This document shows positions 39,034 through 51,195 of a stretch of DNA of 64,000 nucleotides, in pieces. The notes below the pieces were generated by a model. It saw only the letters and a program-made list of their open reading frames with translations. It had not been told where the DNA came from and did no database searches. The DNA lies in IMG/VR virus record IMGVR_UViG_3300009160_000032, positions 27,110 through 91,109 of that record. One strand, given 5' to 3'. Origin of the DNA: a virus. Position 1 is the first letter of the stretch. Every line of letters begins with the position of its first letter. A program made the translations under genes and the position numbers.

Positions 39034-39936
39034 TTAAAATATTCTTCTACTAGACCGGTGCTCATATAATCTTTTTTCACCTCCTTTAGTTAAATATATA
39101 TTTAAATCTTTATTACCTATATCTGAAAATCTTTTCTTTACTGATTGTACATTTCTTTCATCATCATCTGAAAAACCAAATGAAGGTTTATTGAATTTAA
39201 ATAGACCTCCTCCAATAGACTCTTTACCTGTGTTAACGTGATTTACAAATTGAGCCTTTTGGAATTTTTTGGACGACCTCATCATTTTATTGTAGTATTT
39301 TAATAATTCATTAAATTTGGCCTCTTCTGGGTTTGACGCAGATCCACTACCGTAAGACACGGGAGAGAATTGACATCTGTCCAAGTAATCAGTTATTAAC
39401 CAACTTTCATTTTCAATTTGTTTTAATCCCGAAAGTCTCCTGTATTCCTTTAAATGTCTAACCAACTCACTTTTTTCAATACCGTACATATTATTTTCTA
39501 TAATATATTTAACGGCCTTTTTAAGTGTTGCCGGTGAATGTCCTCTAGCGGTTACAATTGCAATCACAGAACCATTGTTAATAGCCTCTTTAAAGTCATT
39601 CCATACTTCCTTAGACGCTATTGGTGCTTGTTTGATATCTTCTAAAAACTTTCTATCTCCCGTAACACTAAAGTCTCTAAATGGGTCTGTATCATAACCA
39701 ACTATAGTTTGTCCTTCATACTCAAAAGGATTTCCTATTAAAGTTCGATACTCAGCAAAATCCTCCGTATTCATTCCTATAACATTACCGTCCTCATCTT
39801 TAAAATAAATTTTAGTTGGCATTTTCATGAGGTTATCATCCCAATCAAAAGCGTAATATTTAGAAGCATAATTTGTTGATTTTTGATCAACCACTTCTTT
39901 TAATATTTTTTTTGCTAAAAATTTGTAATAATTCAT
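39034..39936 (-). CDS. HAD-like hydrolase domain protein, possibly packaged
   Basis: The protein carries an FDWDDNLMKMP motif (residues 30-40 from the chosen start), equivalent to the DxD motif I of HAD phosphatases, then VIAIVTARGHS as motif II and SWLITDYLDRC as a possible acidic motif. That suggests a phosphohydrolase. The first 14 residues (MNYYKFLAKKILKE) form a basic helix ending in an LxE motif, similar to other short leaders here, and the C-terminus is Arg-rich (HRSSRRIF). I chose ATG 39936 because the upstream ATG at 39954 lies before a TATTTATA element that would fall inside the coding region. Located between sheath and tube genes. Confidence 0.6.
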   Translation of the reverse strand: MNYYKFLAKKILKEVVDQKSTNYASKYYAFDWDDNLMKMPTKIYFKDEDGNVIGMNTEDFAEYRTLIGNPFEYEGQTIVGYDTDPFRDFSVTGDRKFLEDIKQAPIASKEVWNDFKEAINNGSVIAIVTARGHSPATLKKAVKYIIENNMYGIEKSELVRHLKEYRRLSGLKQIENESWLITDYLDRCQFSPVSYGSGSASNPEEAKFNELLKYYNKMMRSSKKFQKAQFVNHVNTGKESIGGGLFKFNKPSFGFSDDDERNVQSVKKRFSDIGNKDLNIYLTKGGEKRLYEHRSSRRIF

Positions 39937-39940
39937 ATCA

Positions 39941-39948
39941 TATAAATA
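39941..39948 (-). promoter_or_regulatory. TATTTATA promoter-like element
   Basis: Minus-strand TATTTATA 4 bases before the chosen ATG of the HAD-like gene and just after the sheath terminator region boundary. It overlaps the alternative longer start. Confidence 0.35.
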
Positions 39949-39954
39949 TGTCAT

Positions 39955-47039: not shown

Positions 47040-47345
47040 ATGGATAGATATAGTACAAAAAAAATAGAGAATATCTTAAGAAGAATTTTAAGAGAAGAGG
47101 AAGAAGAAAGTGAACTAACCTCAATCTTTAAAGAAAAAGGATATTCAAATATTCCTGAAGCGTGTAAACCAAGTACAGACACCTCAACAGGAGAAATTTC
47201 ATCTAATATTAAATCGTGTTTTGATGAATTTCAAAAGGCAAATCAACAAGTAATGGATATTGCAAACGCATTAAAAGGTCTTATGGACGAAAAAGGAATA
47301 CAAGCAGAATCAAGAAGAAGATCTTTAAATAGAAGAAGATACTAA
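47040..47345 (+). CDS. small basic/acidic protein with packaging-signal-like N-terminus
   Basis: A 101-residue protein whose first 24 residues (MDRYSTKKIENILRRILREE) form a basic amphipathic helix followed by a Glu run. The helix resembles the leaders of the HAD-like and Pro/Ala-repeat proteins. The C-terminus is Arg-rich (ESRRRSLNRRRY). Middle: two Cys and a helix (FDEFQKANQQVMDIANALKG). It has an individual promoter-like element and a strong terminator, so it is a single-gene unit. I infer a virion-internal or head-core protein; nothing shows enzymatic function. Confidence 0.5.
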   Translation: MDRYSTKKIENILRRILREEEEESELTSIFKEKGYSNIPEACKPSTDTSTGEISSNIKSCFDEFQKANQQVMDIANALKGLMDEKGIQAESRRRSLNRRRY

Positions 47346-47860: not shown

Positions 47861-47887
47861 AACCCTACCATAACGGTGGGGTTTTTT
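47861..47887 (+). terminator. rho-independent terminator after coiled-coil gene
   Basis: Stem CCCTACC/GGTGGGG with loop ATAAC, extended by AA/TT, followed by six T. Sits 20 bases after the stop codon. Confidence 0.9.
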
Positions 47888-47898
47888 ATTTCTTTTGA

Positions 47899-47906
47899 TA
47901 TTTATT
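47899..47906 (+). promoter_or_regulatory. TATTTATT promoter-like element (plus strand)
   Basis: TATTTATT preceded by TTGA, 4 bases before the ATG of the 708-residue fusion gene and just after a terminator. As with the HAD-like and gp25-like genes, the short spacing would leave almost no leader. Confidence 0.4.
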
Positions 47907-47910
47907 TTTA

Positions 47911-50037
47911 ATGAAAGTTACTTTTAAAAACATAGGGGCAAATATAGATGATAAGAAAAACGATCTATTAAAGAAGTTTTGTAAATTTTTACAAAAAAAT
48001 CACAAATTAAAAGAGGATATTACTATCCATCTTATGGGTGAAAAAATTGGCAGAATGACAACAGGTAGTCAACATAAAGAAAAGGGTATTAAGGTATTAA
48101 TAAATAATAGAATGAATAGGGATATCTTAAGAACTTTGGCTCACGAATGGGTTCATTCATATCAAAGAAATGTTATTGGCAGAGATAGGGGACCAGATAT
48201 TGGAGGTCAAAATGAAGATGAAGCAAATTCATTGTCAGGATCTTTAGTTAAATCTTTTGAAAAAGAAAATCCTGATTTAGATAATATAATATATGAAGGG
48301 TACGGTACAATCTATAAAAGAATTGATTTATTAAAAGAGGAAATTATTATCTACGATAAAGTTAATATAAAAAATAACTTTATTATGGAAATGAAAAAGA
48401 TTGGTATCGATAAATTACCTTATTCATATTCGGCAATAAAACAATTTGTTGATCCAAAAACTATGGATATCCACTATAATAAACATTATAAAGGATATGT
48501 AAAAAAACTTAATGATGCTTTATCTAAAAAAAAATATGGTGATTTAGAGTTAGAAGATATTATTAAATCAATTGGTAAATATGATGACACCATAAGAAAT
48601 AATGCCGGAGGTGCATTTAATCACGCATTATTTTGGAAAATGTTGTCTCCAAAGAAACAGGTCCCTAAAGGTGAGGTATTTGAAAAGATCAACAAACAAT
48701 ACGGTAACATTAAAAAAATGAAAGATGAGTTTAATGATGTTGCAAAGAAAAGGTTTGGTTCTGGTTGGGTTTGGTTATTCTTAACAAAGACAAATAGATT
48801 AAAAATTATGTCTACACCAAATCAAGATAATCCATTAATGAACGTTATAAAAGACGGTGGTTATCCACTACTTGGTCTTGATCTTTGGGAGCATTCGTAT
48901 TATTTAAAATATCAAAATAAAAGGGATGAATACATTAAAAATTTTTGGAATAGTGTTAATTGGGAATTTGTTAATGAATTGTACTTAAGTAGGACAAAAA
49001 ACATAAATGAGTCATTAACTGAGGATTCTATTTTATCTGAAGCTAAAGAGGTCTTCCCATTAACCTCAAAATCTTTTAGAGGTTTAATAAACGATGCTTA
49101 CCCTAAATGTGATGGTTTAAAACACACAAACGGTTGTTTAGGAAAAATTGAGACAGAACAATGTAAAACTGATGAAGGGATCATTGGTGGTAAATATACT
49201 GAGCAAAATTATGGAGGTATTGGTAATTGGTCTATTATAAATAGATTTGATACGAATAGTTCCGTACATAAAGAGATTCAAAAAATTTGGTCAGAGGAAA
49301 CTAATTCCGTAGAAAATTTTAGAACATGGATTACAAATAACATGGGAGAACTGGTTGGGGATGAAGGAAGATTTACTGAAAGATTGGTGAATCTAAACGT
49401 AAAAACAATAGTTGACGGTAGAGCAAATGAGAATTATGCAAAGTCAGTTTTAGTTACTTCATTTAAGTTAAATCCTGAAGAGGAAGGTCTTACTTGGAAT
49501 ATTATAGAGAGGTGTGCTGGGGATGTTAGGGATAGAAAATTAGGTCAAGACTTTGATGTTGTTATTGATAATGTCTCATATTACATTCAGGTAAAGCCAA
49601 TTGATTATAAAAAAATTGAAAAGATTGGGTCAGAGAGGGGATACTATTATAAGGTACCTTCTTGGCATTACCATTCTAAATATACTGAAAGTAACGTTGA
49701 TGTTATTTTGTATGTTGATAGACCAAAAGAAAAATTTGTTATGTTTAGAAATGATTTTGCGAGAATTCAAACGGTTGCGAACCCAACAACATTCCCTAAA
49801 TTTTTTGTAATATATTACGAGAATCCTTTAAAAACAAATATGGATTTTGAGGTTATAGTCGAGCCTGATAAGGTAGAATCAAAACTTAAACTTACAAGAG
49901 ACACCCAAACAGAAATTGAGTACTATAGAGAAAGGATACAATATTATAAAGATAAATTACGTGAACTTGGCGATTCTGAAAATATAACTGAAATGATCAA
50001 GTATTACAATGAAGAGTTATATCAACTTATTAATTAA
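47911..50037 (+). CDS. three-domain protein: HEWVH metalloprotease-like, Mn superoxide dismutase, PD-(D/E)xK-like
   Basis: This 708-residue protein joins three domains. Residues 1-130: a small zincin-like domain with LAHEWVHSYQR (H78, E79, H82) and a possible third ligand E102 or E104. Residues 169-358: an essentially complete Fe/Mn superoxide dismutase (LPYSYSAIKQFVDPKTMDIH; NNAGGAFNHALFW; RFGSGWVWLF; STPNQDNPLM; GLDLWEHSYYLKYQNKRDEY). All four metal ligands are present (H188, H238, D324, H328), and Q305 is in the place used by Mn enzymes. Residues 380-708: a domain with GQDFDVVIDNVSYYIQVKP, a D-(x)n-QxK pattern of PD-(D/E)xK nucleases, then a coiled C-terminus. IYE-G (127-130) and LSE-A (376-378) at the two linkers match prohead-protease sites. 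SOD is firm; the flanking domains are tentative. Confidence 0.82.
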   Translation: MKVTFKNIGANIDDKKNDLLKKFCKFLQKNHKLKEDITIHLMGEKIGRMTTGSQHKEKGIKVLINNRMNRDILRTLAHEWVHSYQRNVIGRDRGPDIGGQNEDEANSLSGSLVKSFEKENPDLDNIIYEGYGTIYKRIDLLKEEIIIYDKVNIKNNFIMEMKKIGIDKLPYSYSAIKQFVDPKTMDIHYNKHYKGYVKKLNDALSKKKYGDLELEDIIKSIGKYDDTIRNNAGGAFNHALFWKMLSPKKQVPKGEVFEKINKQYGNIKKMKDEFNDVAKKRFGSGWVWLFLTKTNRLKIMSTPNQDNPLMNVIKDGGYPLLGLDLWEHSYYLKYQNKRDEYIKNFWNSVNWEFVNELYLSRTKNINESLTEDSILSEAKEVFPLTSKSFRGLINDAYPKCDGLKHTNGCLGKIETEQCKTDEGIIGGKYTEQNYGGIGNWSIINRFDTNSSVHKEIQKIWSEETNSVENFRTWITNNMGELVGDEGRFTERLVNLNVKTIVDGRANENYAKSVLVTSFKLNPEEEGLTWNIIERCAGDVRDRKLGQDFDVVIDNVSYYIQVKPIDYKKIEKIGSERGYYYKVPSWHYHSKYTESNVDVILYVDRPKEKFVMFRNDFARIQTVANPTTFPKFFVIYYENPLKTNMDFEVIVEPDKVESKLKLTRDTQTEIEYYRERIQYYKDKLRELGDSENITEMIKYYNEELYQLIN

Positions 50038-50067: not shown

Positions 50068-51195
50068 ATGTCGATAATAAGTAATGAAGAAAGAGAAAGA
50101 CTATATACGAGAGTACGACATGTCTTGGGAGCACCTTTAAGATCTGTTGAACTTGAGGATGAACAGTTAGACACTTTATTAGAGTTCTCTATTGAGGACT
50201 ACTCTCAGTACATCCAAGATTGGTTAATTGAGAGTCAGTGGACAAGTCTTTGGGGTCTTAATGTTGAAACCCAATCATTGGCTAACGCATTTATGACAAA
50301 AAGTTTAGATTATGAAACAAGGTACACTTACGCATATTCTAAAATTGTAGGACTACAGGCAGGAGGAGATTCTGTAATGAAAAAAGATTACATCCAATTA
50401 GTTCCTAATCAACAAATATATGAAATACCTGCAGGTAGAGAAATTAATGAACTTTTATGGTTCAGTCCTGCAACCTTAAACAATACAATGTTTGATCCAT
50501 GGTCTTTTGGTTCTTTAGGTGTTGGTGGTGGACTTGGAGGAGGTGGAGGTCTTGCTCAAATGGGTAATATGGCAGGTAGTTACTTTATGATGCCGGCTTT
50601 TGATATGTTATTAAGAATGCAAGAAATTAATATACAAAGAAGAATTATTGTTGGGGATTTAACATATAGGATTACCGCATTACCTGGAGGTAAAAAGGCG
50701 ATTCACTTAATGAATACTCCCGGTAGTAAATTTGATTTTGGTAACTCAACATTAGCAAAAGGTAAGGTTTGGTATTGGTATTATCCAACAGATGAAAACG
50801 ATAGAGACAGATGTTTAAAAGAGAATCCAGATATAATTAAAATGCCTTCTGATGTTCCCTTTGAAAGAGTAAGTTGGACCGAACTAAATAACCCGTCACA
50901 AATTTGGGTTAGAAGGTGGTTTGTGGCATCAGCGAAAGAATTATTATCAAAAGTAAGAGGTAAGTTTAGTGGTAATTTAAAGGCTCCTGATGGTGATCTT
51001 ACTATGGATTATCAGTCATTGGCTACGGAAGGTAAAGATGAAAAAACTAAATTACTTGACGAATTGATTGGTACTGAAGGTAGACTCACAAGATTAAAAC
51101 CGGAAAAGGTAATGGAAAGAGAAGCGTTAATTGCGGAAAACTTAAACAAGACTCTTAAATTTAGAGCCATGCCAAGACAAATTTATGTAATATGA
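50068..51195 (+). CDS. neck protein gp13-like
   Basis: A 375-residue protein. The N-terminal helices (LYTRVRHVLGAPLRSVELED, then LDTLLEFSIEDYSQYIQDWL) and the later RIIVGDLTYRITALPGGKKA and GKVWYWYYPTDENDRDRC segments resemble gp13-type neck proteins of T4-like phages, which close the filled head and dock the tail. A Gly-rich insert (GVGGGLGGGGGLAQMG, about residue 150) is unusual. It lies on the plus strand, apart from the other neck genes on the minus strand. It overlaps the next small gene by 4 bases. Family call from pattern, moderate. Confidence 0.6.
   Translation: MSIISNEERERLYTRVRHVLGAPLRSVELEDEQLDTLLEFSIEDYSQYIQDWLIESQWTSLWGLNVETQSLANAFMTKSLDYETRYTYAYSKIVGLQAGGDSVMKKDYIQLVPNQQIYEIPAGREINELLWFSPATLNNTMFDPWSFGSLGVGGGLGGGGGLAQMGNMAGSYFMMPAFDMLLRMQEINIQRRIIVGDLTYRITALPGGKKAIHLMNTPGSKFDFGNSTLAKGKVWYWYYPTDENDRDRCLKENPDIIKMPSDVPFERVSWTELNNPSQIWVRRWFVASAKELLSKVRGKFSGNLKAPDGDLTMDYQSLATEGKDEKTKLLDELIGTEGRLTRLKPEKVMEREALIAENLNKTLKFRAMPRQIYVI

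Follow-up and report, generated by a model that had tools for sequence, protein, structure and literature searches.

A zincin-superoxide dismutase-nuclease fusion protein of T4-like metagenomic phages carries prohead-protease-type motifs at both domain joints

In polyvalent proteins of phages, a single polypeptide brings together enzymatic domains of different kinds, and these proteins are predicted to be packaged in the head and injected (Iyer et al. 2017, PMC5512222). Superoxide is mentioned neither in the main text of that paper nor in the part of a jumbo-phage survey available to us. The T4 prohead protease gp21 cleaves after L/I-x-E (PMC9026906), and such sites are contained in T4 ipI-III, gp22, gp23, and gp24. 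In the ejection proteins of SPN3US and phiKZ, a gp21-related protease cuts internally, 20 to 254 residues from the N terminus (PMC10052503). Phage superoxide dismutases (SODs) are usually taken as metabolic passengers. In 2019, oxidative-stress genes including SOD were described in freshwater phages together with a grazer-burst hypothesis, and a protective role akin to the one suggested in the initial annotation of the locus studied here was proposed for these SODs and other antioxidant genes (PMC6802176).

Analysis of a stretch of 64,000 nucleotides (the window), which is part of a 91-kb IMG/VR record of a T4-like myovirus, revealed a single open reading frame joining a zincin-like domain, an Fe/Mn SOD, and a nuclease-like domain. 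The T4-like gene set comprises tail sheath, tube, baseplate, UvsX, and ssDNA-binding protein, along with ribonucleotide reductase, a DnaB-like helicase, an SNF2-type helicase, and DNA polymerase. The reading frame starts with ATG and has no internal stop. Its parts and the elements directly upstream are as follows.

47863..47887, + strand: terminator-like hairpin and T-run directly upstream of the fusion gene (position by eye)
47898..47905, + strand: promoter-like motif ATATTTAT, 5 nt before the ATG of the fusion gene
47911..50037, + strand: zincin-SOD-nuclease fusion gene, 708 aa, with full-length homologues in many contigs
47911..48285, + strand: zincin-like domain, residues 1-125 (alignment A1, AF2 model, PDB matches)
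48280..48390, + strand: joint 1, residues 124-160, ending in I-M-E, then MKKIG
48391..48987, + strand: Fe/Mn SOD domain of Mn type, residues 161-359 (Pfam, PDB, ligands, Gly at X(D-2))
48988..49053, + strand: joint 2, residues 360-381, SRTKNINESLTEDSILSEAKEV, with three [LI]xE motifs
49054..50034, + strand: PD-(D/E)XK nuclease-like domain, residues 382-708 (alignment A3, AF2 model, PDB matches)

The initial annotation had read one frame as a fusion of a zincin-like domain, an Mn-SOD, and a D...QxK nuclease-like domain, and family matches, folds, and conservation bear this out. It had also raised the possibility of an artefactual join of separate genes. A search for the domain order in other phages found the full-length fusion in many IMG/VR contigs, and an assembly artefact or gene join was ruled out because the full-length fusion recurs in many independent contigs (99 zincin-SOD-nuclease ORFs, 344 loci). 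We regard the domain architecture as established, and likewise its conservation. The fusion-bearing phages are large, T4-like, and known from metagenomes only. No fusion and no nucB was found in INPHARED, where a weak zincin match occurred in Synechococcus phages only. The sequence type is not unseen, since UniProt already holds A0A6J5L953, a 501-aa "superoxide dismutase" of an uncultured Caudovirales phage with a nuclease-like fold that matches the model. No discussion of a protein of this type was found in the literature covered, which consisted mainly of open-access papers.

The middle domain had been described as a complete Mn-SOD with four ligands and Q305, and Pfam, PDB, and residue positions agree. 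Within residues 160-360, where a missing match to either Pfam family would have spoken against an SOD, both families match far over the gathering cut-off: PF00081 over residues 166-246 (1.7e-20) and PF02777 over residues 252-356 (1.4e-38). The best PDB match was the SOD 6gsc (2.9e-60 over residues 168-358); we take 6gsc, 6gsb, and 5a9g to be Sphingobacterium-type Mn-SODs. The metal ligands H188, H238, D324, and H328 and the C-terminal-side Q305 are at the positions given earlier. Two residues before the Asp ligand stands a Gly, the X(D-2) residue of Mn-preferring SodFM1 enzymes (PMC10172142). The domain shares ligands and Mn-type second-sphere residues with Sphingobacterium-type Mn-SODs, which gave the best PDB matches, and with Bacteroidota SodFM1, and is predicted to be an active Mn-type enzyme.

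PD-(D/E)XK nucleases often act as dimers. The SOD fold might serve as a dimerisation scaffold that pairs the nuclease (and zincin) domains, with dismutase activity incidental. SodFM1 enzymes are dimers (PMC10172142), and the WEHxYY stretch at the C-terminal side of the SOD is conserved, as such a scaffold would have it. However, the metal ligands, the Gln, and the neighbouring active-site residues are invariant among the aligned homologues. Pairwise dN/dS, with dS high in several pairs, was 0.03-0.12 for the SOD (mostly <0.07), 0.06-0.32 for the zincin, and 0.03-0.34 for the C-terminal cargo where computable; the SOD value was below that of zincin or cargo in most pairs. The cargo is also missing from the short forms, and the [LI]xE joints described below would part the domains. 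We regard the scaffold explanation as improbable.

Phylogenetic analysis placed 39 phage SODs and one metagenome-bin SOD (L166) in one group (100/100) apart from 79 bacterial SODs. The phage SODs thus form one clade in this tree, with Bacteroidota SODs nearest. The closest bacterial SODs found, mostly from Bacteroidota, differ in being single-domain proteins with about 45-54% identity to the phage SOD (54% at most), and many of them start with a Tat-like RRxF signal. The metagenome-bin member (L166:2920-3645) is a standalone 241-aa SOD from a Fluviicola bin, on a long branch inside the phage clade. SOD matches in records named Staphylococcus, Salmonella, Escherichia, or Listeria phage were left out because they look like host contamination. 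Host-like SODs in the phage-labelled INPHARED records OR850395, OR845917, AFYI01000005, and similar ones are probably bacterial contamination as well.

An alternative is an auxiliary metabolic enzyme, that is, an uncut and unpackaged fusion whose SOD, merely tethered to the nuclease, lowers superoxide in late infection, whether it stems from respiration in the cell, from sunlight, or from the oxidative burst of a grazer. Consistent with this explanation are the invariant active-site residues, the Bacteroidota SODs as nearest bacterial relatives, the unfused SODs of PA5oct-type and Vibrio phages, and the published proposal for freshwater phages, which includes grazing (PMC6802176). It leaves unexplained the [LI]xE motifs at both joints, the exchangeable cargo with leaders, and the motif held in common with head genes, and no catalase was found in five large related records. 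An auxiliary enzyme of this kind is rather unlikely, although it deserves more weight than the dimerisation scaffold.

The N-terminal domain carries HEWVH at residues 78-82. H78, E79, H82, and the downstream E102/E104 are invariant in alignment A1 (30 sequences), as in zincin-like metallopeptidases. Pfam gave weak matches to several zincin families. Structure prediction, which the initial annotation had suggested for both terminal parts, yielded an AF2 model with a pLDDT of 88.6, whose highest-probability PDB matches were zincins and YbeY-type HExxH folds, all weak (E >= 0.05).

The C-terminal domain contains E507, D547, and Q560/K562 (D547-x12-Q560-V-K562, within E...GQD-x12-QVK) and a conserved Cys. 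In alignment A3 (13 sequences), E131, D171, Q184, and K186, the residues characteristic of PD-(D/E)XK enzymes, are invariant. The AF2 model (pLDDT 85.0) showed a restriction-endonuclease-like fold in PDB and BFVD comparisons. It resembles I-Ssp6803I, DpnI, SPARDA, Hjc, and RecU (best PDB matches, E >= 0.006); the first three matches had a probability of 1.0 and an E value of 0.006, with other superfamily members below and none at E <0.001, and a BFVD match was annotated PD(D/E)XK. On this model, the domain is PD-(D/E)XK nuclease-like. It shares the fold and the D...QxK motif with I-Ssp6803I, DpnI, and Hjc/RecU and differs from known PD-(D/E)XK enzymes by an additional N-terminal region with the conserved Cys and by a helical C terminus. 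No sequence-family match was found for it.

IMG/VR scans, in which the best 80 matches per query were analysed, revealed 142 relatives of the whole protein, 79 of the nuclease, 365 of the zincin, and at least 587 of the SOD. The best 80 of the at least 587 SOD relatives were all SOD fusions: 44 zincin-SOD (alone or with an unmodelled domain), 19 with nucC, 10 with nucB, 4 with domD, and 3 SOD-nucE. The first 344 loci contained zincin-sod-nucB (99), zincin-sod (75, some possibly with one more, unmodelled domain at the C terminus), zincin-sod-nucC (21), zincin-sod-domD (10), and smaller classes; these family counts are ORFs over overlapping loci, not dereplicated by contig or genome, and do not represent independent phages. 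The SOD is followed by nothing, by at least two related PD-(D/E)XK nucleases, by two other domains, or by small repeated domains. The zincin-SOD part is fixed and the C-terminal part is exchangeable. SOD-nucE without zincin occurs in L416, L419, and L426 (512 aa) and in L221 (534 aa); in L221, nucB has an ORF of its own, headed by a leader. Profile comparison showed nucE and nucB to be homologous (probability 90, E 1.6e-6), and the nuclease domain in the window is related to that of L221. nucC was considered as a PD-(D/E)XK nuclease as well. It shows only a D...SxK-like motif; profile comparison did not link it to nucB or nucE, and Pfam gave nothing above the cut-off.

Further arrangements were observed among the loci. 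A C-terminal cargo of about 377 aa follows the SOD in L401-L403, L409, L411, L417, L421-L423, and L427 and is incomplete in L410. In L039-L041 and L035-L037, the SOD gene is bordered by small paralogues in tandem (about 100-175 aa, MKIIITESQ leader), and their domain is also fused to this gene. In L254, a 106-kb phage contig, zincin (128 aa) and nucB are separate genes, with no SOD in the stretch examined.

Occurrences of [LI]xE were tallied region by region (five regions) in 115 distinct zincin-SOD proteins, leaving out near-identical stretches; this test was devised only after the linkers had been inspected. The ratio of observed to shuffled counts was 2.2 in joint 1 and 3.2 in joint 2, vs 0.45 in the zincin, 0.96 in the SOD, and 0.96 in the cargo. 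At joint 1, [LI]xE directly precedes MKK in 115/115 of these proteins; the motif is short, and joint 1 is a Glu/Leu-rich helix with Met at P1'. At joint 2, 44 of 46 non-redundant linkers have [LI]xE with a small residue, Asp, or Asn at P1', and 68 sites were observed (shuffled mean 8.6, maximum 20, 2000 shuffles); a first run had given 47 sites vs 4.9 in shuffled linkers (0/5000). Many short forms stop straight after the SOD and hence have joint 1 only.

The same elements occur outside the fusion. At the N terminus of standalone nucB and domD proteins, [LI]xE comes after a [TS]E(S/N/Q) leader (for example, MKIIISESQYKLIKEN and MKYIFTESQLDILKNKILINED); joint 2 is built in the same two parts. 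About 20 ORFs of genome G001 fit a loose version of the leader pattern. The major head protein of related records contains FLINE-A, corresponding to FLTE-A in its T4 counterpart. The [LI]xE motif at both joints is that of the T4 prohead protease (gp21), and its presence there is what is new here. A gp21-type protease was found in four of five large related records (the record of the window, G000, was outside this search), as was gp23.

Self-processing offers another source of cleavage: the zincin domain, not gp21, would cut the joints. The HExxH and Glu residues are invariant, and an autoprocessing role has been proposed for polyvalent proteins with a zincin hub (PMC5512222). Against this, the joint motifs fit the specificity of gp21, [LI]xE leaders occur on zincin-less proteins as well, and SOD-nucE without zincin retains a joint-1-like N terminus. 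Cleavage by the zincin therefore seems doubtful, with little probability attached to it.

The genomic localization of the fusion gene was compared across loci. In almost all of them, an SNF2 helicase gene stands on one side of it and a gp13-like neck gene on the other, and small leader-type genes are often found in between. About half of the fusion homologues compared have a hairpin and T-run upstream comparable to that in the window. A portal gene was identified in G001 (PHROGs). Two neighbours in the window are listed below.

47040..47345, + strand: small protein with a leader-like N terminus (MDRYSTKKIENILRRILREEEE) and the ATATTTAT motif
50068..51195, + strand: gp13-like neck protein (head-tail adaptor Ad2), adjoining the fusion gene, with the ATATTTAT motif

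In addition, a HAD-like protein with a leader-like N terminus and the ATATTTAT motif is encoded at 39034-39954. ATATTTAT is a genome-wide promoter-like motif in G001 (L174-L188) and in the window. In G001, 76/134 of its sites (57%) are found just upstream of an ORF, no more than 28 nt from its start, vs 12-27% for nine control octamers. Across representatives, the motif precedes the SOD fusion in 24/31, gp13 in 29/31, and a 170-aa gene in 27/27, vs 0/28 for SNF2 helicase, 2/14 for DNA polymerase, and 1/27 for tail sheath; given the last count, it is not a mark of all virion genes. In G001, it stands upstream of the gp21-type protease and a scaffold-like gene, and 10/15 leader-type ORFs have it vs 55/277 others (Fisher p 1.9e-4). 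This distribution suggests that the fusion gene is regulated in common with head and neck genes, and we infer late timing. The T4-type late promoter TATAAATA was not found upstream of the fusion gene, although it is enriched upstream of G001 genes. Synteny and the common promoter-like motif uphold the earlier placement of the gene in a virion-gene region.

A fixed zincin-SOD part followed by C-terminal parts that are exchanged, with [LI]xE at each joint, points to head packaging and maturation cleavage. The reading that sequence patterns support best is a late, head-packaged pro-protein that is cut at its joints by a gp21-type protease and whose zincin, SOD, and nuclease are ejected with the genome; we give it an even chance. 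The pro-protein would be made late and destined for the head, with a zincin-like metallopeptidase and an active Mn-SOD strung in one chain, joined in the long forms by a cargo (the PD-(D/E)XK nuclease in this case). As the head matures, the gp21-type protease would cut the [L/I]-x-E joints, and the freed enzymes would leave with the genome. The SOD would then clear superoxide near the entering DNA or within the cell just infected, and the nuclease, perhaps with the zincin, would attack host or rival targets. The narrower claim that heads carry active Mn-SOD and nuclease released by the protease from one pro-protein, providing an antioxidant before phage gene expression, is plausible but falls somewhat short of an even chance. 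Against packaging stands the lack of a leader at the fusion protein's own N terminus, since T4 targeting sequences are N-terminal.

The protein was compared with the known systems. With polyvalent proteins, it shares unlike biochemical domains in one chain, a zincin-like peptidase, a nucleic-acid-directed domain, a virion-gene neighbourhood, and the prediction that it is packaged and injected; it differs in its fixed zincin-SOD order and in having [LI]xE at both joints. With T4 IPI-III, Alt, and the capsid targeting sequence, it shares L/I-x-E sites, a gp21-type protease (in related genomes), and a structural-gene neighbourhood, and its cargo has standalone relatives that bear leaders. In T4, however, the targeting sequence is a short stretch at the N terminus, whereas the sites in the fusion are internal and what is carried includes an enzyme of a house-keeping type. 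Its N terminus is occupied by the zincin, the leader-like motif is internal, and because its own N terminus has no targeting leader, the fusion was not filed as a T4 internal protein, although by analogy it may work like one. Internal cleavage by a gp21-related protease is common to the packaging model and the SPN3US/phiKZ ejection proteins, but the SPN3US motif is A-x-E and the parts removed there are propeptides, not conserved enzymes. On the packaging reading, it would be a new form of two known kinds of protein, the T4 internal proteins and the polyvalent proteins.

The SOD described here is part of a conserved multi-domain protein found in many T4-like contigs, with exchangeable nuclease-type parts and prohead-protease motifs. 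The rules for leaders and joints provide a sequence handle for listing packaged proteins of uncultured phages. If the packaging model is true, internal and not only N-terminal gp21 sites would let one gene provide the head with several enzymes. Infection may deliver the phage's own antioxidant enzyme to the cell, and oxidative stress during DNA entry would then be a selective force on phages.
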